From a virus, in the IMG/VR virus record IMGVR_UViG_3300028045_000105, positions 1-23,424 of that record: a stretch of DNA of 23,424 nt; one strand, given 5' to 3'. Positions 8,109 through 23,362 of the stretch are shown piece by piece (positions within the stretch are counted from its first letter, which is position 1; each line of letters opens with the position of its first letter). Under the pieces are notes generated by a model. The model made no database searches. It saw only the letters and a program-made list of their open reading frames with translations, and was not told the DNA's origin. The position numbers and the translations under genes are program-made.

Positions 8109-10750
8109 CAGCGCATGTCCCTACGGGTGGCTCTGGCGTTCCTCACTGCTCCCTCGATCGCTCGGCGACCAGCGGCACTGGTGAGCATTCGCTCGACGCT
8201 CGGGCCATCGACGGCGCTGATGTTGATGTTGATGGTTTCCGATCCCCGGCCAGAGCCTCGGAAGTCCACCGGGATGGATCGGCCATTCGGTAGCGGGACA
8301 ACGGCCTCGCTCTGACCGCCCTCACCAATCATCGCCAGTGTTGGATTGTTGACGATCCCGCCGTGTGCGAACTTTTCTGGCCCGGCCCCATGTCCCCAGT
8401 CAACCCAGCCGCCGCCACCGCCGCCGCCAGAGCCACCACCGCCACCGGAGAAGCCAGCAGAGAGGAGGAGTTCGGCGAACTGTTGGACAACTTTCTTCGA
8501 CATCAGCCTGTTGATCTCGCTGAGTACCGAGCGCAGGAATGATTTGAATGCCTCCTCGCCTTGATCGGTTCCCGCTGCGACACTATCGAAGAATCTGGCG
8601 AGCGAGTCCTCGGCGATTTTCACCACCCGCTCCCCGAGGGCCTTGAATGTTTGCTCCAGTGTTTTCACGGGCTTGATGGCACCTTCGATCCCGCCCTTGA
8701 AACTCGCCCAGGCCACCTTTGAATTCTCCCAGAACACCACCAGCGAATCGTACCATCGCTCGGTTTCTACGGTGCCCCCTTCGAGATTCTCGAGGGTCTT
8801 CCCGGTCTGCTCGACCAGGGCGACCAGCGCCTCTGGTGCCTTTTCGCCGAGGGCTGCGAGTTCCTTTTCCAGTTTCTTCAGTTCCCTGGATGCGCTCGCA
8901 ATCTCATCTGCATTCCAGTCGATGTCTGTCACTCCAAGGGCTGCGGACTGTATGCCCTCCACGATTTCAACGATCCTCACCGATTGCTTTTCCCAGTCCA
9001 TCCGCTCGCTGAGATCCCTGAGTAGTTCATGCGATGTCGGCCCGGCGATCAGTGGCGTGTCCTTATCCCCCTCGGATAACCTGGTCGCTCCAGTGGTCCG
9101 GATGAGGTTTTCACGCTCCGTCTCGATTGCCATTCGCTCCTTCTTCAGCATGGCTCTGGTCTTGAACAGCACCCGCAATTCGACCTGTAACGCATCGATC
9201 TCTGATTGCGGCAACATCCGCTCGACTAGGCCAGGAACCAATGATGGATCATCTCGATCCGCTCCTGTCCTCCTGGCGCTTTCGATCAGACTATCGAGAT
9301 CAAGGTTCCTTGCAATCGCACCCTGGACCACTAGCAACCTGTTCGCCATCTCTTCACGAGATGCCATGAGTTTGTCCAGGCGGGTGTTCGACTTATCCAC
9401 CTCGGTCTCGATGAACATCCCCACGCCAGGGATATCGGAGAACGCATCGATCCAATTCTGCACACCGCTGGCGAGTTGTCCCCACACGAATCGTATGCCC
9501 TCGACAGCCAGCAGGAATGAGTTCAGCATGAACATGAATCCATTGGTCAGTGTTTGTAACACTGGCAGCACCAGCAGGAATGCCTTCCGGAACTCCAGCC
9601 CGGCGATCCCCGCCCTGATTCTGAGTTCATCCATCCTGGCGATGAGGCCATCGAGGTGGTTTCCGAGGCCATCGAATGCTGTATCGGCGAAGTCCATCGC
9701 CAGTATTTTCATCAGGCTCGTGAACTTGTCGAGCGTGACGGCGAGCGTGCCCTGCATTAGTTCATAGGATGTATCGAGTTCGTCGAGCAGCCCCCGCTGT
9801 TCGGTCAGCATCTCATTAAAGATCCGGCCCTCGTCGCTTGAGAGTTTCAATGCCCCACGATAGCCTCGCTGGTCTGCGAACACCTGGGAAAATGGAACAC
9901 CGATGCGGAGTGCTTCCTCTCGGATGTCCACGATAGTCTGGCCGAAGTTTCTGCCCGCCAGCATACTCTCGGAGAACTCGATCCCCAGCGAGCGAAGCAC
10001 CTTCTGCATTCCCTCGGTCGGCTTGATGAATGCTTTCATCGTGCCAGCCAACTCGGTCGTCGCCTCTTCAGTACTGCCAGCCGTTCTTGTGATCAACGAC
10101 AGCGACACCAGCATCTGGTCAACATCGACATGGGCCGCCTCGAAGGATGCCCCGACCTTGCCAACATTGTTGGCGATCTCCTCGAGGGTCGTTTTCCCCT
10201 GGACCTGTGCAGCGAACAATGACTGCGCCAGAGCGTTGATGCCATCTGCACCACTGACTCCGAATGAGTTGGCGACCACCGCCAGGCCGCTGACAGTTGC
10301 CGATAGGTCTGCTGATCCAGCGACTGCGAGCCGGGTGGCGATGTTCAAGGTTTCCATCGCATCGCTGGCCTTCGTTCCAGCACTGATGACATTGAACAAG
10401 CCATCGGCCAGTTTCTCGGGAGCGATGCCGGATTCGACTGACAACTGCTGGACCTGTTCGGTGAACCCCTCGAGGCTATCCCGTGCCTCTTTCCCGAGCG
10501 TGCCGACCTTCGCCATCTCCCTGTTGAACTCTGCCGGACCACGGACCAGCGCCTGGAACCCGCCGAGGACTGCGAGCAGCGCCACCGCCTGAGTTCTGGC
10601 ACCAGCCATCATGCTTCGCATCGCACGCCCGGCTCGGATGGTCTGCGTCCTGATCGTGGCGAGACTCCTGCGGACCGCAGTGAATGCGGGTTTCGTCAGG
10701 TTCTTCGCCATGAGTCGGATGTTTAGCAGTGCGGAACTAGCCATCGGCAT
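8108..10750 (-). CDS. Tail tape measure protein
   Basis: This is an 880-residue protein from ATG 10750; TTG 10756 and ATG 10744 are alternatives, and the gene overlaps the end of the chaperone frame. Residues about 60-260 match the TP901-type tape measure core (FNREMAKVGTLGKEARD, SAGTKASDAMETLNIATRL). Hydrophobic segments follow at about 390-425, with long helical stretches. A Gly-rich linker of about 15 residues precedes a typical C-terminal end (FAHGGIVNNPTLAMIGEGG, EAVVPLPNGR). The protein sets tail length and is ejected with DNA. Using the usual rule of about 0.15 nm per residue, the tail would be near 130 nm. Family assignment is secure from sequence and from position after the G/GT frames. 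Confidence 0.95.
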   Translation of the reverse strand: MPMASSALLNIRLMAKNLTKPAFTAVRRSLATIRTQTIRAGRAMRSMMAGARTQAVALLAVLGGFQALVRGPAEFNREMAKVGTLGKEARDSLEGFTEQVQQLSVESGIAPEKLADGLFNVISAGTKASDAMETLNIATRLAVAGSADLSATVSGLAVVANSFGVSGADGINALAQSLFAAQVQGKTTLEEIANNVGKVGASFEAAHVDVDQMLVSLSLITRTAGSTEEATTELAGTMKAFIKPTEGMQKVLRSLGIEFSESMLAGRNFGQTIVDIREEALRIGVPFSQVFADQRGYRGALKLSSDEGRIFNEMLTEQRGLLDELDTSYELMQGTLAVTLDKFTSLMKILAMDFADTAFDGLGNHLDGLIARMDELRIRAGIAGLEFRKAFLLVLPVLQTLTNGFMFMLNSFLLAVEGIRFVWGQLASGVQNWIDAFSDIPGVGMFIETEVDKSNTRLDKLMASREEMANRLLVVQGAIARNLDLDSLIESARRTGADRDDPSLVPGLVERMLPQSEIDALQVELRVLFKTRAMLKKERMAIETERENLIRTTGATRLSEGDKDTPLIAGPTSHELLRDLSERMDWEKQSVRIVEIVEGIQSAALGVTDIDWNADEIASASRELKKLEKELAALGEKAPEALVALVEQTGKTLENLEGGTVETERWYDSLVVFWENSKVAWASFKGGIEGAIKPVKTLEQTFKALGERVVKIAEDSLARFFDSVAAGTDQGEEAFKSFLRSVLSEINRLMSKKVVQQFAELLLSAGFSGGGGGSGGGGGGGWVDWGHGAGPEKFAHGGIVNNPTLAMIGEGGQSEAVVPLPNGRSIPVDFRGSGRGSETININISAVDGPSVERMLTSAAGRRAIEGAVRNARATRRDMR

Positions 10751-11117
10751 TCTCAATCGTCTGGATCTCGCCGACCACTACAGCATGAGCATCAAGGAAT
10801 GATTGCGACTGGTCGAGGATGCCACCAGCCACGGGCCAATGGCCATCCCTGGCGTGAGCCACATACCTGATGACGGTCGAGATGTATGGGTCGATGAATT
10901 TACGAGGGCATCGCTTCAGGCCGATCGTGCCTGTGCCATTGCATCTGGTGCAGTCCGGCCAGCGGCCACACCCGCAGGGATACCGATCGAGATCGTGCGG
11001 CGTGTCGGTGTCGCATCCCCAGTCGGCTCGGAACCGCTCGGCGGATTCCGTCCCCTGGGAACATATCGAACAGTCCATCGGGTAGATTCCCATCGCCATC
11101 CTGGTTCCTATGATCAG
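10737..11117 (-). CDS. Tail assembly chaperone extension (gpT-like), made by -1 frameshift
   Basis: This frame has no good independent start. It is entered by a -1 slip at GGGAAAC (11117-11123), after which translation continues CTG-ATC-ATA and through an ATG at 11099 to the stop at 10737-10739. It adds about 126 residues to the G-like protein, for a fusion of about 230. The extension is cysteine-rich: CSIC near its start, then YPCGCGRWPDC and CTRCNGTG, the last matching the CxxCxGxG pattern of DnaJ-type zinc fingers, then a further Cys (KRCPRK). This suggests one or two zinc knuckles that may bind the tube protein or tape measure. By analogy with lambda gpGT, the low-abundance fusion would recruit tube protein onto the tape measure. 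An independent start at ATG 11099 is possible but would lack the known coupling. Confidence 0.85.
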   Translation of the reverse strand: MIIGTRMAMGIYPMDCSICSQGTESAERFRADWGCDTDTPHDLDRYPCGCGRWPDCTRCNGTGTIGLKRCPRKFIDPYISTVIRYVAHARDGHWPVAGGILDQSQSFLDAHAVVVGEIQTIENADG

Positions 11118-12585: not shown

Positions 12586-12917
12586 TAGATCTCCTCCAAT
12601 GTAATCCCCACGGAACTCTGCCCGCCAGATTGATGTGTGATCGTCAGGCTGTCCTGCGTGATCATGTAACTTCCAGCCGAGCCGCCCGGCGGTGTCCAGG
12701 TGAGCGTGCCGCCACCATTGACCTGCCCGAACACCACGACCAATCCATCTACTTCCTCCTGCGTCAAACTGCGCCAGCCGATCTCGTAGCCCGTGCGATG
12801 TTTCTTCCCTGACGGATTACGATTCCGCCGGATCAACACGCCCGCCCCGTAACTCGCAGCCATCCCGTACTGGTGGACCTCTCGAATGCTCTGCGGGTCA
12901 AGCGTCAATGTCGGCAT
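12585..12917 (-). CDS. Small gpM/DUF2460-like tail protein
   Basis: This is a 110-residue protein; ATG 12917 overlaps the terminator gene stop as TGATG. It carries a short version of the pattern seen at the C-terminus of the distal tail protein at 6555-8108: a Trp-containing strand, LTQEEVDGLVVVFGQV, GG, TLTWTPPGG, and a final Leu-Glu-Glu. In lambda no gene lies between U and V, so this is an addition to the standard order. A beta-sandwich tail component, perhaps acting at the proximal end of the tube, is likely. The family link rests on my alignment by eye and would be settled by a profile search. Confidence 0.6.
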   Translation of the reverse strand: MPTLTLDPQSIREVHQYGMAASYGAGVLIRRNRNPSGKKHRTGYEIGWRSLTQEEVDGLVVVFGQVNGGGTLTWTPPGGSAGSYMITQDSLTITHQSGGQSSVGITLEEI

Positions 12918-13387
12918 CAGTTCCTCGCCGTGTATGGATCCGTGATCGAATGCTGGTATCGGATTCTGACGGAAACCGTGGCCCCGACATAGGGCTGAGA
13001 TTCAGCCAGGCGGAATGGATGAATGGATTCAATCTCGCAAGTCCGGGCCAATCCGCCCCTTGTCGGATCCACCATGACGGCCTTCTCGACATCTGCGGCG
13101 AGGCTGTCCACCACCGTGGCGGTGGAGCCACTGACGACATCCTGGTCATGGACAGCGAACAGGTCGATCGTTATCGCCAATTCGCAGTCAGCCCGCTCGG
13201 TCGGTCCCTGGCTCTTCCGCTCGTCCTCGAAGTTGACCACGGCGGTCGGCACCTGCGCCACAGTCAACCCGCCCTGCATGAATCGTTGCACGCTCACCAG
13301 GGTATTCTCGTAACCATTGCCCGTGGTGATATCGCCCAGCGCCGTGGCGATGTTTGCGATGATCTGCTCCCTGACACTCGCTGGCAT
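12917..13387 (-). CDS. Tail terminator protein (U-like)
   Basis: This is a 156-residue protein with ATG 13387 behind a GGAG; the upstream stop lies right before it. The layout fits phage tail terminators: an N-terminal helix (REQIIANIATALGDI), GNGYENTLVSVQR, a Pro-Thr-Ala-Val strand, a run of alternating strand residues (CELAITIDLFAV), a helix (ADVEKAVMVDP), and a C-terminal strand ending VRIRYQHSITDPY. Terminators cap the tail tube and join it to the neck. Position after the Z-like gene and two genes before the tube agrees with the lambda order Z-U-V. Confidence 0.8.
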   Translation of the reverse strand: MPASVREQIIANIATALGDITTGNGYENTLVSVQRFMQGGLTVAQVPTAVVNFEDERKSQGPTERADCELAITIDLFAVHDQDVVSGSTATVVDSLAADVEKAVMVDPTRGGLARTCEIESIHPFRLAESQPYVGATVSVRIRYQHSITDPYTARN

Positions 13388-14143
13388 TTATTTACTCCTC
13401 TTATTGATTCCCCATACCATGCTTTTCAGGGCTTTGGTAATTTCCTTGTCGTACCGCTCGAGGGTCTCACTCTTCATGGCTTTCCAGAGTTTGTAATATC
13501 GCAGCCCATCCTTTTTCATCTGTACTCGCTTGATCAGTAGCATCACCGGGAATGGCTTGGCTCCCGATTTCTTGTGCCTGGCCCAGAGGATCGTATACGA
13601 CCCTTTGACCTGCCATTGGAAGTTGTAGGCGGTGCGCAATCCGCCCGGCTTCAGGATCTCGCCAACGGTTCGCCATGACGGCTTCGCCCTGGGCTGGACT
13701 TCGCCCGCTCGGCGTTTCCTGGCATTGACATTCCCGGACAGCACGATGGGTATTCCCAGGTATGGCCCCTTCGCCTGGATCTTCTTCCCCTCCTCCATCG
13801 ACTCTGCGGCCTCGCTCCGTGTTCCGATGTTGCCGCTGATCTGCTTCACTGATTTGACATGGCTGCTGCTGTGCCGCCGGGCTTTCGGCGGTGTCGGCGG
13901 GTGAACTTGCCAGATGAATGATCGGCCTATCGGTGGCATTTTCCCTGCGCTGGCAGCGCCTCGAGGGTTCGCCGATTTCTTCCCCCGGATGTTCGCTGGC
14001 GTTTTCTTCAAGAACTCCTTGCGGAATCCGCCGAGCGCCCTGGAGGTGCCATGCCACAATCCTCGAGCCATCACGGTCTCGCCAGTGGCCATCGCCTCCT
14101 GGAAGGATTTCAGGTTCTGTAGGTCTGGGAAGATGTCGATCAT
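13388..14143 (-). CDS. Neck or tail completion protein (Z-like position), strongly basic
   Basis: This is a 251-residue protein. ATG 14143 overlaps the FII-like stop as ATGA, which decides the start against longer frames. It is very rich in Lys and Arg and mostly helical at the N-terminus (FPDLQNLKSFQEAMATGETVM). The middle contains KARRHSSSHVKSVKQI, and the C-terminus is KALKSMVWGINKRSK. It holds the place of lambda Z or HK97 gp10-type proteins between the head-tail connector and the tail terminator. It might belong to the DUF6441-type minor tail group, but I cannot confirm that from motifs. The role is assigned mainly by synteny. Confidence 0.6.
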   Translation of the reverse strand: MIDIFPDLQNLKSFQEAMATGETVMARGLWHGTSRALGGFRKEFLKKTPANIRGKKSANPRGAASAGKMPPIGRSFIWQVHPPTPPKARRHSSSHVKSVKQISGNIGTRSEAAESMEEGKKIQAKGPYLGIPIVLSGNVNARKRRAGEVQPRAKPSWRTVGEILKPGGLRTAYNFQWQVKGSYTILWARHKKSGAKPFPVMLLIKRVQMKKDGLRYYKLWKAMKSETLERYDKEITKALKSMVWGINKRSK

Positions 14144-14451
14144 TCCATCGCCCTGACTGTCCAGAGATTGGCATCGCTGTTCAGGAGCCGAACCACCCGG
14201 CATCGCACCTCGCCCTTGTATGGCTCGACCTTCACCAGCACCTCGTCGGTGCCAACATCCACGATTGCGATCTTCCCCGATTCGCTCCCTCGAGGCAGGT
14301 AAATGTCCACAGGCTTCACGAGATTGTCCTGGAGGATCTTGGAAGTGGAGCGCACCACGACAGCGGTGATCACGACAGCATCGGCGGTGACTCCGCCAGG
14401 GTAGTAGGTGACCTGTTCCATCGCCTGATAGTTGAAGAAGTCCAATGGCAT
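14140..14451 (-). CDS. Head-tail connector / head completion protein (FII-like)
   Basis: This is a 103-residue protein from ATG 14451, with GAGGT five bases before it. The sequence is all-beta with a pattern close to lambda FII: VTYYPGG, an ITAVVVR strand, a variable loop, VDIYL, then GTDEVLVKVEPYKGEVRCRVVRLL. The family closes the filled head and joins it to the tail. It lies 3 bases after the repeat-fibre gene, whose last about 104 residues are a diverged copy of the same domain (shared YYPGG and strand order), so the two are probably paralogues of one connector fold. Confidence 0.75.
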   Translation of the reverse strand: MPLDFFNYQAMEQVTYYPGGVTADAVVITAVVVRSTSKILQDNLVKPVDIYLPRGSESGKIAIVDVGTDEVLVKVEPYKGEVRCRVVRLLNSDANLWTVRAME

Positions 14452-14454
14452 CGA

Positions 14455-14769
14455 TTACCTCACAGCCAACAGGTGAACCATGCCAGGGTCGTGGTCGATG
14501 ATTTCGACGACACGCACCCGCTCTGCTGCTTTCCCATCGGTCACGACTATATCGGCGAGATCTTGCCCGGCGTTAACGGTGGACACCCCGAGAACTGCAT
14601 CGGTAACAATCCAGAGTTCGACATCAACGGTCAGCGATCCAGCCTCCATCGTATAGGCGATGATCTCCGGCTCGGTGCGCTGTACGATTGCCCGGATGGA
14701 TTTCCCTGCGGCCAGGTCTCCGCCTGGGTAGTAGGTGATCGCCTCGGTCAACACCTCGATCGCCATCAT
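14455..14769 (-). CDS. Possible nested connector protein from internal start
   Basis: Inside the repeat-fibre gene, tandem ATG codons at 14769 and 14766 lie 8 bases downstream of GGAG (14778-14781), exactly where the repeats end and the connector-like domain begins. Initiation here would give a 104-residue protein almost the same length as the FII-like neighbour (103 residues). It may supply free connector subunits mixed with a few fibre-bearing ones. The domain boundary and Shine-Dalgarno are visible; use of the start is inference. Confidence 0.35.
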   Translation of the reverse strand: MMAIEVLTEAITYYPGGDLAAGKSIRAIVQRTEPEIIAYTMEAGSLTVDVELWIVTDAVLGVSTVNAGQDLADIVVTDGKAAERVRVVEIIDHDPGMVHLLAVR

Positions 14770-17454
14770 CGCTTTCGCTCCGGCCTTGATGAATGGTTCA
14801 GATTCCGTGATCGACACGGCGGTGGTGGCTGTTCCGGATCCTGTCCCCGAGACCGTCACGAGCAGCCCGATGACCATCGACGAAGTAGCGGCGGCGGAAC
14901 CGACTGGAGCGAGGCGCAGGGATGCCGACCTCGAGACCGCTGACGAAGCCAGGCCGCTCGCTGCGACTGTCACTGACAAATTACGGGTGACCGTGGCGGT
15001 CGCCGCCGCTGTTCCAGATCCAGCAGATGCCGCCGATAGGGTCGCCTCTTGCCCGGTCGAGATGCTGATGGTGGCGGTCCCGGCTGCTGCTGCTGCTGCG
15101 AGCAGTGTGGCCGCTCGAGTGGCTGCGCCTGTGGCGGTAGCGAGTCCTGTGGCGGTCGCTGACAGCGTGACCTGGCTGGTGGACTCGAGGGCGGCGGTCG
15201 AGGTTCCCGAGCCTGTGGCGGCGATGGCGAGCGTGACATCAGTGGTCGTGGATATCGCAGCGGTCGATGCCCCTGATCCTGTGGCTGTCGCCGACAGCGT
15301 GCGAGTCGTAGCGGCTGCAATGGCGGCGGTCGATCCCGCTGCGCCTGTGGCTGTCACCGCCAATGTGACATCAGTGGTCGTGGATATCGCAGCGGTCGAT
15401 GCCCCTGATCCTGTGGCGGATGCGGTCAGTCCTCGATCAGCAGTGGATGCGATGGATGTAGCCGTCGAACCGGATCCAGTGGAGGCGGCGAGGAGCGAGG
15501 CGGAGCGGGCCAGGATTGTCGTGGCGATCGATGCGCCTGTGGCGGCTGCGGCGAGCGGGACATCCGTGGTCGTGACGATGGCGGCGGTCGACGATCCAGA
15601 GCCTGTGGCATTAGCGGCCAGGGCGACATCGGTGGATGCCGTAATCGATACAGTCGATGATCCCGCTCCCGTGGCGGTGGCGGCCAGGGTTCGATCCGCA
15701 ATGGCTGCGATGGCCGTGGTCGACGATCCCGAACCTGCTGCGGCTGCGGCGAGTGTGACATCGGTGGTCGTAACGATGGCGGCGCTGGTAGCTCCGGAGC
15801 CTGTGGCGACTGCTGCAAGCGTTCGAGGTTGTCCGGCGGCGATGGCAGTGGTCGACGATCCCGAACCTGTGACAGCGCAAGCCAGGGCGACATCGGTGGA
15901 GGCGGCGATGGCCGTGGTCGAGGATCCTGCACCTGTGGCAGCGATGGCGAGCGTGACATCCGTGGTGGTGACGATGGCGGTGGTCGAGGATCCTGCACCT
16001 GTGGCAGTCGCTGCGAGGGCAACATCTGCGGCGGCGGCGATAGCGGTAGTCGAGGATGCCGAGCCTGTGGCTGTAGCGGCGAGCGTGACATCCGCAGCGG
16101 CTGCGATGGCCGTGGTCGAGGATCCCGAACCTGTGGCACTGGCGGCCAGTGCGACATCCGCAGTGGCGGCGATGGATACGGTCGATTCGCCCGAACCCGT
16201 GGCGGATGCGGCGAGATCCTGAACTGCCGAGGCCGTGTGCGCCACCGTAGCGCCGCCGGAGCCTGTGGCCTGACCCGATACACTCACGGATTGCGCTGCT
16301 GTCAGGGCGGCAGTGGTGGCCCCGGATCCAGTGGCTTCGGAAGCGATTGCCCTGTCCTGCACGGCTGCGATGGCAGTGGTCGAGGAGGCCGAGCCAGTGG
16401 CGGTGGCGGCCAGGGTGACCGTGGTGGCGGCGGCGAGGGCGGCAGTCGATTCCCCTGCACCTGCGGCGGCGGCGGCCAGGGTGACAGTGGTGGCGGCGGC
16501 GATCGCCGTGGTCGAGGTTGCTGCGCCCGTGGCTGTAGCGGCGAGCGTGACATCCGCAGCGGCTGCGATGGCCGTGGTCGAGGATCCTGCGCCAGTGGCG
16601 GTGGCGGCCAGGGTTCGATTGGTTCCCGTCGATGCTTCCTTAAGGGCGATCCATAACGCCGCCATTCGGTCATTGCTGCCAGTGCCATCGTGTGCCCAGG
16701 TCAATGCGGTATTGTCTATCGCAGTATCGGCTGCGGAGAAATTCGCAAACTCCTGATAAACGGATGAGATGGATGCCCTGTTACCAATCAGATTGTCAAC
16801 GAGCGAACCGTTTTCATGGAGACACTGTGACCATCCCGATGGCCGGGTAGCCATTGTATCCCAGTCGTTTACGAAGGCGTGGCCATACGCTAAGACGCTG
16901 ACGGCTCCATCGTAGATCGTTGATGACCAGTTTGTGGAACTGGCTCCGGTGCCCCATACGATCTGGTCGCTGCCGTCGATGAAGTTTGCGGTGTCGTTGG
17001 CGACTGCCATCCCTGTTACGAGTGCAGTGGTGTCGATACCAGTGCTACCCCGGAGCAAGTAGGCATACATGCTGATTCGGTCGTTGCCGCCATTTTGGAA
17101 GGTGACACCGATCTGGACTTCGCCTGACCCATTCAACTCTGTTGAAGTGATCGGGAGATAATAGAGGTACAGGTATCTGCGATTCTGCGGCTTATAAACG
17201 CCATCGACTGGATCACCATTATCATCGACGGCTCCGCCGGGTAGCGGTACACCAGTGGGATCGCTGGCTGATGCATTGCTATCTGTCGTCACGATAATCG
17301 TTCCTGCCTCAGCAGGTCTTCCTCCACGGTTTGACCCGAACAAGACCAGCAGATCTCCCGCAGTTGCGGCCCGGATTAACGCTGGCAGCGTGTTCGTTCT
17401 CAGAGAATGGAATGGAACATCCCCGGCGGCAGGAGCGATGATCGAGATTGCCAT
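14455..17454 (-). CDS. Neck/capsid fibre with about 28 Ala-Thr-Gly-Ser repeats and C-terminal connector domain
   Basis: This is a 999-residue protein with ATG 17454 overlapping the LamG gene stop as TGATG. Residues 1-275 form a beta-rich globular head (GDLLVLFGSNRGG, YLYLYYLPITSTELNGSGEV) of the kind found in phage display proteins. Residues about 281-883 are about 28 tandem copies of a 22-residue unit with consensus near LAATATGSGSSTTAIAA, then two variable residues and DV. Residues 896-999 repeat the FII-like connector fold (EAITYYPGGDLAAG). No catalytic motif is visible. I infer an extended fibre tethered at the head-tail junction by its C-terminus. An internal ATG at 14769 could also give the connector domain alone. 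Repeats with this Ala/Gly/Thr/Ser bias occur in other phage proteins, but the fusion is unusual to me. Confidence 0.8.
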   Translation of the reverse strand: MAISIIAPAAGDVPFHSLRTNTLPALIRAATAGDLLVLFGSNRGGRPAEAGTIIVTTDSNASASDPTGVPLPGGAVDDNGDPVDGVYKPQNRRYLYLYYLPITSTELNGSGEVQIGVTFQNGGNDRISMYAYLLRGSTGIDTTALVTGMAVANDTANFIDGSDQIVWGTGASSTNWSSTIYDGAVSVLAYGHAFVNDWDTMATRPSGWSQCLHENGSLVDNLIGNRASISSVYQEFANFSAADTAIDNTALTWAHDGTGSNDRMAALWIALKEASTGTNRTLAATATGAGSSTTAIAAAADVTLAATATGAATSTTAIAAATTVTLAAAAAGAGESTAALAAATTVTLAATATGSASSTTAIAAVQDRAIASEATGSGATTAALTAAQSVSVSGQATGSGGATVAHTASAVQDLAASATGSGESTVSIAATADVALAASATGSGSSTTAIAAAADVTLAATATGSASSTTAIAAAADVALAATATGAGSSTTAIVTTTDVTLAIAATGAGSSTTAIAASTDVALACAVTGSGSSTTAIAAGQPRTLAAVATGSGATSAAIVTTTDVTLAAAAAGSGSSTTAIAAIADRTLAATATGAGSSTVSITASTDVALAANATGSGSSTAAIVTTTDVPLAAAATGASIATTILARSASLLAASTGSGSTATSIASTADRGLTASATGSGASTAAISTTTDVTLAVTATGAAGSTAAIAAATTRTLSATATGSGASTAAISTTTDVTLAIAATGSGTSTAALESTSQVTLSATATGLATATGAATRAATLLAAAAAAGTATISISTGQEATLSAASAGSGTAAATATVTRNLSVTVAASGLASSAVSRSASLRLAPVGSAAATSSMVIGLLVTVSGTGSGTATTAVSITESEPFIKAGAKAMMAIEVLTEAITYYPGGDLAAGKSIRAIVQRTEPEIIAYTMEAGSLTVDVELWIVTDAVLGVSTVNAGQDLADIVVTDGKAAERVRVVEIIDHDPGMVHLLAVR
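14806..16614 (-). repeat. Tandem 66-bp coding repeats, about 28 copies
   Basis: The DNA encoding residues 281-883 of the fibre protein is a tandem array with a 66-base period. Units are diverged but some stretches are identical: about 53 bases at 15233 recur 132 bases later at 15365. The protein pattern IVTTTDV recurs every third unit near 15558, 15756 and 15957 (about 198 bases). Units toward the C-terminus are shorter and more degenerate. The array can change copy number by recombination or slippage in multiples of 66 without breaking the frame. Confidence 0.93.
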
Positions 17455-18524
17455 CAGTATGTGATTTCTAGTTCAATGGTGATGGTCCCGGCCTTGTATG
17501 CGTGAGCGACGAAGATGTCCACCGATCCGCTGATGGCCCCGGAAGAAGGAGTCACCCAAGATGTGAAGGTGTCGGCAATAGCACTGTCGAGATTGATGTC
17601 GGATGTGAATGCCTTTGATTTCGACACTCGTGGATCAGTCGAGACATATGGATGCCCTGTCGGCAAACTGGATTCAATGCCCATCGAATGGGCCAGCCAC
17701 CCCTCGATCTTCTGCCGTTGCGAGGTACTCCACACCCTGTCAGCGATGATGATCCGAGAGATCGAATGCGAGTCAGTGTTCCATGAGTCGTTCTTCCGCT
17801 CTGCACACAGGTAGTCGAATGAGATGTTGTTGTTCGGTGCGCCGCTGATTGATTCCGATGTGCCGTCAATCCACAGCAGAACAGCATCGGATGTGGACTT
17901 CGTGAGCGTCACGATTTCACCATTCCCGACAGCGGTGCTTGAGCGGGCGGAATCTTGAAGGTCATCCCGGATCCTGAATCCTCCGGCTTGATTCCCTAGT
18001 CGAGTGCATTTGGTTCCAGATCCAGAATCGCCGCCAATGATGGGGCCATTCGATGAACTGAATCCATCGACGGCAATGGCAACCGAGAACGGATCACCGC
18101 TGGCAAAGTCGAGAGGATCGCCGAGGGCAACTCGGTCTTCATCGGCTGCTCTGAATTGAACTGCAGGATACCCGGTGATGTTCGCCCCAGCATCTTCCCA
18201 CACTGGAGTTGCTCCTGAAGGTGCAGTGCCGTCATTCCCTTCGCCGGAGGAGTCCTGCCAGAACGAGAACGCTGTACCGTCTGCGAGACCTTTGATGGAA
18301 GCAGCATCGTAGTCGGCGACGACTCCCATCGTCGGGATGTACTTACTATCCTTGGATGACGCAGCGTCGATGTTGAAGGCGAAATACCCGGCAGCCACGG
18401 ACTTCTTCGCTCGTACCTTGCTGATTGTCGTAGACGGACCGAAACCCATTCGAGCCGCCGGACTCATCCCACCTTCGGCGATAGAATCACCCGGAAGTAT
18501 GATGGAGATTGTACGCCGTGCCAT
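17454..18524 (-). CDS. LamG-like (concanavalin fold) virion display protein
   Basis: This is a 356-residue protein from ATG 18524, with AGGTGG five bases upstream. Residues about 68-285 fit a LamG/concanavalin-like beta-sandwich: YDAASIKG, FWQDSSGEGNDG, a Pro-Ala-Val-Gln-Phe strand, and the typical ending with EGWLAHSMGI followed by LPTGHPY at 274-293. Such domains bind carbohydrates or glycoproteins, and this ending is frequent in environmental bacteria and their phages. No glycosidase residues can be pointed to. The N-terminal about 60 residues may anchor it to the capsid or neck. It lies between a small beta protein and the repeat fibre, downstream of the major capsid gene. Confidence 0.72.
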   Translation of the reverse strand: MARRTISIILPGDSIAEGGMSPAARMGFGPSTTISKVRAKKSVAAGYFAFNIDAASSKDSKYIPTMGVVADYDAASIKGLADGTAFSFWQDSSGEGNDGTAPSGATPVWEDAGANITGYPAVQFRAADEDRVALGDPLDFASGDPFSVAIAVDGFSSSNGPIIGGDSGSGTKCTRLGNQAGGFRIRDDLQDSARSSTAVGNGEIVTLTKSTSDAVLLWIDGTSESISGAPNNNISFDYLCAERKNDSWNTDSHSISRIIIADRVWSTSQRQKIEGWLAHSMGIESSLPTGHPYVSTDPRVSKSKAFTSDINLDSAIADTFTSWVTPSSGAISGSVDIFVAHAYKAGTITIELEITY

Positions 18525-18605: not shown

Positions 18606-19112
18606 TTACTTCAGCGTAATGTCAATGTCTGCTGCTGCGATCGTTACCGTGTCGCCGTTCGTCACTGGCTTCGCAACGGTCAGCGCCCCGTACATGAACA
18701 TCGTATTACTGACAACTGGCGGGCCAGCGGAATATCCGCTTCCAAAGTGAAGACCGAAGTGGGTGATGTTGCTCGACCCGTTCCAATCCCCCGTGGCTGT
18801 CCATGAGATCTGTGCGCTGTTCGACATCACTGTGCCGAGTGCAGTATCGGTCGAGGTGGATTCCGTCCCGGCGGTGAATGCCACGAGTTTCCTCGAGTAC
18901 CCGGTGCCGCTCGTCGACACCTCATTGGTCAGCACTCCATTCTCGCCTGGCGATGCGGTGTGATGCAGGGAGATGTACACGCCCTGGTTCGCTCCGCCAG
19001 TATCGGATGGAGTGAATGCCGTGGATCCACCGAACCCATCAGCCTTGAGCGTTACGCCCTTCAGCACATAGGACAGGAGTTGGACCTCGCCCTCATTCGT
19101 GAACTGAGACAA
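18606..19112 (-). CDS. Virion structural protein, probable decoration or adhesin subunit
   Basis: This is a 168-residue all-beta protein. The start is TTG 19112, supported by an AGGGGGTGA Shine-Dalgarno six bases upstream; no suitable ATG exists nearby. It resembles a phage structural type seen in many genomes, with an N-terminal helix (GEVQLLSYVLKG), a VYISLHHTASPGENGV strand-loop, and the pattern NEVSTSGTGYSRKLV, in which a Gly-Tyr-x-Arg motif follows an asymmetric Gly/Thr loop. It lies 12 bases after the major capsid gene, so it is likely produced in quantity and placed on the capsid or neck. The family's precise role is not known to me. Confidence 0.65.
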   Translation of the reverse strand: MSQFTNEGEVQLLSYVLKGVTLKADGFGGSTAFTPSDTGGANQGVYISLHHTASPGENGVLTNEVSTSGTGYSRKLVAFTAGTESTSTDTALGTVMSNSAQISWTATGDWNGSSNITHFGLHFGSGYSAGPPVVSNTMFMYGALTVAKPVTNGDTVTIAAADIDITLK

Positions 19113-21506: not shown

Positions 21507-23019
21507 CCTTACCTTTCATCTGTAGTTCTTCCATGAATGCTTGCTCCCTGGCCCGCTGCTCGAGGACTTGCTCCCAGTCTCGGCCCTGGGCGGCGGCTTC
21601 AATTGCGAGGCTCGATAATCCTGCATCAATCGCCATCGTGGCCGACTCCACTTCCTTCTTCGGATCCACCCAGCCATAGGATGGCGGAACCCAGCGGCTG
21701 CGAACAATGTGATGCTTCAGTCGCTCGAAATCCTTCACCGGGATCTCGCCACGCATCCACGCTTCCTCCACCACCATCGAATACACTTGCGTGCAGAGGT
21801 GATCGGTGATGTACCGCTGCCAGCGTGTGAACACTCGGCGGGCTTCGAGTAGTGCGGCCCTGGCGCTCGAGTAGTTTGTCTGGCTGAAGTCTTTCGCCAC
21901 CAGTTCATACGGTAGGCCCATCGAAGCGCCGATCGATCTGAGGTGGCGCATTACGAATTGATCGTATCCTGTGCCATTCGCCGTGCCTGGATTCGAGAAG
22001 GTCACCTGCTCGCCCGGTGCCAGATACGAAATCATGCCTGGCTCGATTTCCTGGATGCGCTGCTGGCTGACAGTTTCATCGCTTCTGTTCACGGCTGCAT
22101 TGTATGGATCGTCACGCTGGACGAACATCGAGAAGCACGCCGATACCCGCTCCCTGACCAGTACGGCCTCAGAGAACGAACTCAGATCCTTAAACGACTG
22201 GAGCGCAGGAGCGAGCATCGGCTCGCCTCGTGTCTGCCCTGGTCTGGTGTTGTTCATCAAGTGGATCATCTGCGGCGTGCCATCGCTGTCGAGCGCACGG
22301 ATTCGCCTGTGCCTGGCATCCTTCCTGCGCTCGTAAATGCCATCGCCGGGATGCGAGACCCGCAGCCAGTAGGCCACCGGGTGCCCATACTTCCCGAGTT
22401 CGACACCGCTGCGCCGATTGAATTTCCCATTCACGCTGTCGAGATCTCCGGGCGACTCCAGCCTGTCAGGCTCGATGACTTCGAGCGCCAGATCGTAAGG
22501 CGAGGACACTCGGCTGATTCTAACGGGTAGCACCAGAGCCTCGCCATTAACGATGATGCTCCGCATCACTGCGGCCTGGAGGTCGTAGAATGTCATCCCT
22601 CGGGCGATGTCTGCGTGCGGTGCCCATCGCTCCCATGCGAACTCGCACGCTTTGCGAATCGCCGCCGCATCTTGATCGGATACACCGAGCGCAGAACCAT
22701 CGATCACTGACTGCGGGCGGATCCCTGTCCCGACTACATTGTCAACCAGGCTCCCCACCACGCTCGAGGCGTGTGGATCATTCCGCATCAACTCCCTGGA
22801 GCGTTCCCGCAGGAGGCTCAGGTCTGGGAGCAGATCGGAATCCGCTGATCCGGGAGTCACCGCCCAATTGTTGCTCAGGCGAGTTTCCCGTGCGCCTCGG
22901 AATGCTTGCGAGAAATGTTCCCCGGCGGTCCTGGCGGCTTGCCGCTCCAGTGCCCGTCCAGGTGCGAACACCTCGATGGCTCGATCGATGGCTGATGTTA
23001 GTGTTTGGCGTATGTTCAT
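21496..23019 (-). CDS. Portal protein, lambda B family
   Basis: This is a 507-residue protein from ATG 23019, overlapping the gpW-like stop as ATGA. It matches the lambda portal family throughout: LRERSRELMRNDPHASSVV, VDNVVGTGIRPQS, the middle region FYDLQAAVMRSIIVNGEALV, GQTRGEPMLAPALQSFKDLS, and the C-terminal YSSARAALLEARRVFTRWQ. The C-terminal extension is helical and charged. The portal dodecamer forms the DNA channel in the capsid and docks terminase. The terminase large subunit is not visible and would be expected to the right of the window. Confidence 0.96.
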   Translation of the reverse strand: MNIRQTLTSAIDRAIEVFAPGRALERQAARTAGEHFSQAFRGARETRLSNNWAVTPGSADSDLLPDLSLLRERSRELMRNDPHASSVVGSLVDNVVGTGIRPQSVIDGSALGVSDQDAAAIRKACEFAWERWAPHADIARGMTFYDLQAAVMRSIIVNGEALVLPVRISRVSSPYDLALEVIEPDRLESPGDLDSVNGKFNRRSGVELGKYGHPVAYWLRVSHPGDGIYERRKDARHRRIRALDSDGTPQMIHLMNNTRPGQTRGEPMLAPALQSFKDLSSFSEAVLVRERVSACFSMFVQRDDPYNAAVNRSDETVSQQRIQEIEPGMISYLAPGEQVTFSNPGTANGTGYDQFVMRHLRSIGASMGLPYELVAKDFSQTNYSSARAALLEARRVFTRWQRYITDHLCTQVYSMVVEEAWMRGEIPVKDFERLKHHIVRSRWVPPSYGWVDPKKEVESATMAIDAGLSSLAIEAAAQGRDWEQVLEQRAREQAFMEELQMKGKDDE

Positions 23020-23234
23020 TTCGGTCTCACGAACCGGACATAGTTTGTAGCGTTGTCGGTCTGCTCATTGGCAAGTTGCGAAATCAATCGACGCTCGAGA
23101 TCCATCAACTGGGCCAGCGAGTAATGCGAAAGTTGCCGCCCGTTGATCTCGTAGGACTGGACAGCGCCGCCATCCATAAGGGCATCAATTGCATCTCGCA
23201 CCTTTTGTAGTCGTGTAGCCGTGGAGTTCGCCAT
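23016..23234 (-). CDS. Head-tail joining protein (gpW-like)
   Basis: This is a 72-residue protein. ATG 23234 gives a gpW-sized product (lambda W has 68 residues) with a two-helix layout: TATRLQKVRDAIDALMDGGA, a short beta hairpin SYEINGRQLSHYS, and a second helix LAQLMDLERRLISQL. GTG 23279, which overlaps the stop of a tiny upstream ORF as TAGTG and has an AGGA nearby, is an alternative adding 15 residues. Location directly before the portal matches lambda W-B. In lambda this protein stabilises filled heads and binds the connector. Confidence 0.8.
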   Translation of the reverse strand: MANSTATRLQKVRDAIDALMDGGAVQSYEINGRQLSHYSLAQLMDLERRLISQLANEQTDNATNYVRFVRPK

Positions 23235-23278
23235 GCGTACAGTGTGACGATGAAGCGTGGAGGCCGTCCACTGGCTCA

Positions 23279-23362
23279 CTATTCCTGGATGAAGATCAGA
23301 CAACCGCCAACGCCAGCGAACAGGACCAATTCATTCTGCTGCACTCTTCGCCCTTGAGTCAT
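23279..23362 (-). CDS. Possible 27-residue small protein
   Basis: ATG 23362 opens a 27-codon frame ending TAG at 23279. The product has a polar head (MTQGRRVQQNE) and a hydrophobic tail (LVLFAGVGGCLIFIQE) that could insert in a membrane. It overlaps the end of the upstream frame and, by one base, the alternative GTG start of the gpW-like gene. No clear Shine-Dalgarno is seen, so it may be a chance frame. Confidence 0.3.
   Translation of the reverse strand: MTQGRRVQQNELVLFAGVGGCLIFIQE

Follow-up and report, generated by a model that had tools for sequence, protein, structure and literature searches.

Lambda gpFII is a hexamer whose N-terminal helices are seated on the gpW ring (PMC10721106). 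Stoppers without a long N-terminal extension have also been described (PMC10276861). Fibrous neck proteins are known from several phages. The lactococcal NPS proteins consist of an N-terminal BppU-like anchor, proposed to form an 18-mer collar, a coiled-coil stalk and a C-terminal carbohydrate-binding module (PMC6669499). The NPS gene of TP901-1 follows the baseplate genes (PMC4493119), and domain exchange in NPS proteins has been described (PMC10684548). The neck fibres of cyanophage A-1(L) are composed of gp82, gp81 and gp80, in which the trimeric N-terminal gp82 sits on a 15-mer gp5 ring and the beads are separate gp81 trimers (PMC10966104). The whiskers of T4, made of fibritin (wac), are trimeric coiled coils attached to the particle via their N-terminal region (PMC3004832), and phage Milano has a collar without fibres (PMC10491603).

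A gene that may encode another type of neck fibre was found in a viral sequence of 23,424 nucleotides (IMG/VR record IMGVR_UViG_3300028045_000105), the whole of which is referred to here as the window. Gene order in the window follows that of lambda (W, B, C, D, E, FII, Z, U, V, G, T, H), and a lambda-type portal and a Mu gpT-like capsid protein are also encoded. Three extra genes occupy the place of lambda FI, coding for a GP4 gp80-like protein, a 356-aa protein and the fibre. The features of the region are the following.

12917 to 13387, minus strand: tail terminator at the gpU position (phrog_4204, E = 1e-9)
14140 to 14451, minus strand: stand-alone FII-like head-closure (stopper) protein of 103 aa (place ahead of Z/U-like genes as in lambda; AlphaFold; fold matches)
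14455 to 17454, minus strand: giant fibre gene of 999 aa, with a variable N-terminal head, a stalk of 22-residue repeats and a C-terminal connector domain (ORF and domain analysis)
14458 to 14769, minus strand: C-terminal connector domain of the fibre, about residues 896-999, YYPGG family, putative virion anchor (homology to the 14140-14451 product)
14800 to 16614, minus strand: repeat stalk of the fibre, residues 281-885, with 24 in-phase 22-aa units at 281-804 and degenerate units after them (position matrix and lag analysis)
16630 to 17454, minus strand: N-terminal head of the fibre, residues 1-275, putative distal tip (no family match; swapped between close relatives)
17454 to 18524, minus strand: protein of 356 aa adjoining the fibre (the gene in relative L016 matches phrog_10356, virion structural protein, at E = 9e-9; synteny)
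18606 to 19112, minus strand: 168-aa head/fibre protein of the podophage GP4 gp80 family (PF23140, E = 3e-14; phrog_240 head protein, E = 5e-11)
23016 to 23303, minus strand: gpW-like head-tail adaptor, the expected partner of an FII-like stopper (phrog_118, E = 4e-10)

All relatives that cover the region have a gene similar in size and place to that of the 356-aa protein. The relative of the GP4 fibre I protein gp80 (18606-19112) adjoins the capsid gene of a lambda-like phage. At the lambda T position, window 10737-11099 codes for a zinc-ribbon-like product with several cysteine pairs, and counterparts are present there in L009, L016, L020 and L026.

The fibre frame starts with ATG on the minus strand, and the plus-strand frame at 14455-17454 is riddled with stops. 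The 999-residue product reported in a first-pass annotation of this DNA, which gave no strand, is thereby borne out on the minus strand. Matches at a lag of 22 involve 48.6% of residues, versus a maximum of 23.2% in 1,000 shuffles, and the 24 in-phase units score 20-46 bits with a position matrix, against 16.7 for the best of 200 shuffles. The DNA of the repeat region has a corresponding period of 66. With degenerate units continuing to about residue 885, the earlier count of about 28 copies was a fair one. The stalk repeat, a unit of 22 residues, is of low complexity and rich in A/T/S/G. The protein thus has the make-up of a repeat-built fibre, with a tandem-repeat stalk, a variable tip and a conserved anchor. 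The whole fibre matched no family in Pfam, PHROGs or NCBIfam, and its N-terminal head had no match in Pfam, PHROG, NCBIfam, PDB or phage sequences. Long antisense frames cover the repeat region (window 14735-16222 and 15829-16656, both on the plus strand); they are plausibly a by-product of GC content and the 66-base period, and are not taken as genes.

Sequence comparison makes a solid case that the C-terminal domain of the fibre and the 103-aa protein, whose gene starts 3 nt past the fibre stop codon, are homologous. In BLASTP, 26 of 90 residues are identical (29%, E = 5e-8), and the 14140-14451 product is the only other match to the C-terminal domain in the whole record (E = 6.6e-6). A profile-profile comparison of the two domains, which the first-pass annotation had proposed together with a comparison to lambda FII and AlphaFold models of both, gave 99.0% (E = 3.7e-18) with two sequences against two, and 99.6% (E = 3.5e-24, 92 columns) with six against six. 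Profile searches in both directions, covering 4,406 frames from 38 sequences, retrieved at E ≤ 2.2e-4 only fused copies, free copies and the single-copy connectors of relatives L010, L026 and L027. The fused and free copies of L009 are 35% identical to each other (E = 5e-17). Both window domains carry a TYYPGG-type start and are of nearly equal length (about 104 residues fused, 103 free). AlphaFold models made from separate alignments have six strands in identical order and an HHH-HHH turn after YYPGG in each. The likeness in YYPGG, strand order and length described at first pass therefore stands in both sequences and models, with pLDDT values of 72.5 for the free copy and 52.4 (poor) for the fused domain, and with weak fold matches, all Foldseek matches of both models lying above E = 0.001.

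The 103-aa gene has the capsid gene on one side and the Z/U/V tail genes on the other, with the tail terminator two genes on. Neither window connector domain matches a curated FII model in Pfam, PHROGs or NCBIfam, and a search of the PDB by sequence with the connector profile and the head returned nothing relevant. The single-copy connector of L010 matches both NCBIfam tail_join_FII (E = 1.3e-21) and Pfam Phage_attach (E = 4.7e-18). In the proposed comparison with FII, the fused domain reached 64% (E = 6e-5) against a six-member FII profile, but L010 is itself part of that profile, and the free copy reached a non-significant 3.7% (E = 0.012). Since only the homologous L010 protein reaches a curated FII model, the free copy is termed FII-like, not FII. 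Both AlphaFold models share weak PDB matches to neck proteins (Chi 8vhx, phiXa 9lbn, T4 9lu5/9lu7 and phiCD508). The fused-domain model also retrieves SPP1 gp16 (2kca), and the free-copy model A-1(L) gp7 (8kef) and an R4C stopper-terminator entry; head-to-tail stoppers and head-tail joining proteins are among the matches of the latter model in BFVD. Stopper-like barrels also occur in baseplate (hub) and other proteins among the fold matches, so the fold by itself does not fix a location. The N-terminal helix of ~20 residues for adaptor contact is absent from the free-copy model, in which the first strand begins after only some 10 residues. Gene position, the single-copy relative in L010 and the fold matches together support the earlier identification of the 14140-14451 product as an FII-like head-closure protein.

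The arrangement is common to five lineages of uncultured phages (window-like, L009, L016/L019, L020 and L023/L030). The relatives are all metagenomic contigs, and the records include near-duplicates. Exactly two connector matches were found in all 11 fibre-bearing records (the window and ten more); a frame of 104-130 codons holds the free one, and a long frame ends in the fused one. L010, L026 and L027 have one copy each. In the tree, the free copies form a clade with support of 98/95 and the fused copies lie on the other side, which is weakly supported and has L010 beside it on a long branch. The simplest reading would be one duplication before the five lineages split. Fibre and connector genes abut in the window, L009, L020 and L023 (overlapping by up to 4 bases or separated by up to 3) and are about 120 bases apart in L016; the adjacency fits a tandem duplication of the connector gene, with the upstream copy fused to the fibre gene. 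Homology, the single duplication in the tree and the presence of two copies per fibre-bearing record against one in the outgroups strongly support the original suggestion that the fibre ends in a duplicated connector.

Between close relatives, synonymous codon changes exceed nonsynonymous ones in both copies, on small counts. The window and L023 have a stalk unit of 22 residues, and L016, L020 and L009 one of 20 with the same type of anchor, while complete fibre genes encode 921-999 residues in total. The 20-residue units of L016 and L020 are paired as 40. Neither connector domain, nor any of three heads, had a tblastn match in 50,697 phage records. The fused arrangement was not found in a motif scan of one genome per species across 84,980 species, and 15 prophage-type loci found via the portal held no fused copy. 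A second case of a YYPGG connector domain at the C-terminus of another protein is encoded at L026 7626-8252, where a two-domain head-closure protein consists of Phage_H_T_join_3 (Pfam) followed by the connector domain.

Which end of the fibre is free can be judged from exchanges between relatives. L016 and L020 are 25% identical in their heads, 30% in their repeats and 73% in their C-terminal domains. The head encoded in L006 1-2565 is a different one, closest to that of L020 (26%, E = 5e-6), whereas residues 351-999 keep 92-100% identity to the window, a single 22-residue unit being deleted; the L006 contig begins inside the head. L023 shares about 98.6% DNA identity with the window in the capsid gene, the two neighbours and the head. 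It changes over close to where head and stalk meet, and its stalk, anchor, connector and tail module are different ones. L023 2449-5214 is thus an apparent recombinant inside the fibre gene, with the reservation that the junction is spanned by one contig, for which a second was sought and none found, so that misassembly is possible. Because otherwise similar fibres exchange their heads and conservation is highest in the anchor, the free tip would be N-terminal. These patterns point to a fibre that is held by a conserved C-terminus and whose N-terminal tip can be exchanged, a polarity that would be the reverse of that usual in tail fibres.

The 999-residue protein probably serves as a long accessory fibre that is held at the head-tail junction by a domain paralogous to the FII-like stopper of the same phage. 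Most simply, the stopper gene would have been duplicated in tandem and its upstream copy fused to a fibre gene. The first-pass idea of a neck protein turned into a tethered fibre would thus be the best available interpretation. Via its C-terminal domain the fibre would be incorporated in the stopper layer or docked to it, with the gpW-like adaptor on one side and the gpU-like terminator on the other; it could share a mixed ring with the free stopper, form a second ring or dock from outside. Of the remaining parts, the 22-residue repeats would make up an elongated stalk and the variable N-terminal head its free end, where glycans of the host surface or the environment are probably bound. Glycan or receptor binding by the head is a putative function, suggested by its variability alone. 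The sequences themselves show the homology, a single old duplication, conserved synteny and a head more variable than the anchor; from them we infer presence in virions, neck position, stoichiometry and a role of the head in binding, with neck attachment following from the derivation of the anchor from a connector. Descent of the anchor from a stopper speaks strongly for its origin and less strongly for its present location. That the fused domain and the free stopper co-assemble into a mixed head-closure ring, making the fibre part of the DNA gate, is a tentative and rather improbable extension; if it were true, binding by the tip could be sensed at the neck and help to trigger genome release.

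Other placements of the protein were weighed. It is unlikely that a co-opted stopper-like domain anchors the virion fibre at another site, either the tail tip or the capsid, where the protein would be a head fibre along with its gp80-like neighbour. The two upstream neighbours are indeed head or structural proteins, and the stopper-like barrel is seen in baseplate hub proteins too, but the domain stays close to the phage's own stopper, and in L023 (one contig) it changes with the stopper/tail module and not with the capsid module. A product that is not part of the virion at all, such as a secreted or superinfection-related surface protein from the late operon, would suit the low-complexity A/T/S/G repeats; it is nonetheless highly improbable for a gene that lies tightly spaced within a structural operon in five lineages and carries a conserved anchor of a structural family.

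The identity of the 103-aa protein bears on the same question. One usual arrangement for a chaperone is a small gene that immediately follows the fibre gene and resembles its end, and Tfa-type proteins can resemble fibre C-termini. The 103-aa gene has just that place and likeness, and it is the fused copy, not the free one, that scores better against the FII profile; hence the protein might be a fibre assembly partner or chaperone, with another protein, or the C-terminal domain of the fibre itself, as stopper. This is nevertheless very unlikely, as the free copy fills the FII position just before the Z-like gene, where there is no other candidate, its model resembles stoppers, and the single-copy relatives in L010 and L026 are joining proteins without a fibre nearby. 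The first-pass annotation had also allowed that the resemblance is only a shared small beta fold. Such barrels are frequent in phage necks, tails and unrelated enzymes, the last of which also appear among the fold matches. Convergence without duplication is, however, hardly conceivable for domains related in sequence in both search directions, more strongly so in other lineages (L009), and only within the set of fused/free pairs and single-copy connectors. Fold convergence was rejected on this reciprocal sequence homology (profile-profile comparison and HMM searches).

If anchoring by a stopper paralogue is correct, a new virion appendage has arisen by duplication of a ring protein and fusion of one copy to a fibre, the duplicate supplying an anchor that already fitted the neck. 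It also makes testable the idea of a neck fibre as a component of the ring that retains the DNA.

Compared with lambda gpFII (PF05354 Phage_attach, NF049848 tail_join_FII, phrog_82 Hc1), the free copy is similar in its position before Z, its size, its six-stranded model and its homology via L010. In contrast to lambda, with one copy and a plain hexamer, a second copy here ends the 999-aa fibre, and there is little or no N-terminal helix. The NPS proteins of TP901-1 and the 936 phages resemble the putative neck fibre in having a variable distal domain, and a non-essential accessory role is plausible here as well, but the anchor of this fibre is C-terminal and stopper-derived and its gene lies between capsid and stopper. 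In place of the NPS hallmarks (BppU-like N-terminal anchor, coiled-coil stalk and C-terminal carbohydrate-binding module), the fibre has an A/T/S/G-rich repeat stalk, a conserved end that is C-terminal and no family matches in Pfam, PHROGs or NCBIfam. A-1(L) likewise bears long beaded fibres on a neck ring, and its hexameric neck protein gp7 (8kef) matches the free-copy fold; the repeats here, unlike its beads, lie in one chain and not in separate trimers. T4 fibritin is also a fibrous protein of the neck, the position postulated here, but no connector homology has been described for it. The statement in the first-pass annotation that no described neck fibre is built in this way fits the freely accessible literature, in which no stopper-paralogue anchor was found among described neck fibres, although neck fibres in general are well documented (PMC10966104, PMC6669499, PMC3004832). 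Neck fibres attached through unrelated N-terminal domains are already known, and on the best reading what would be new is a C-terminal anchor derived from the stopper.
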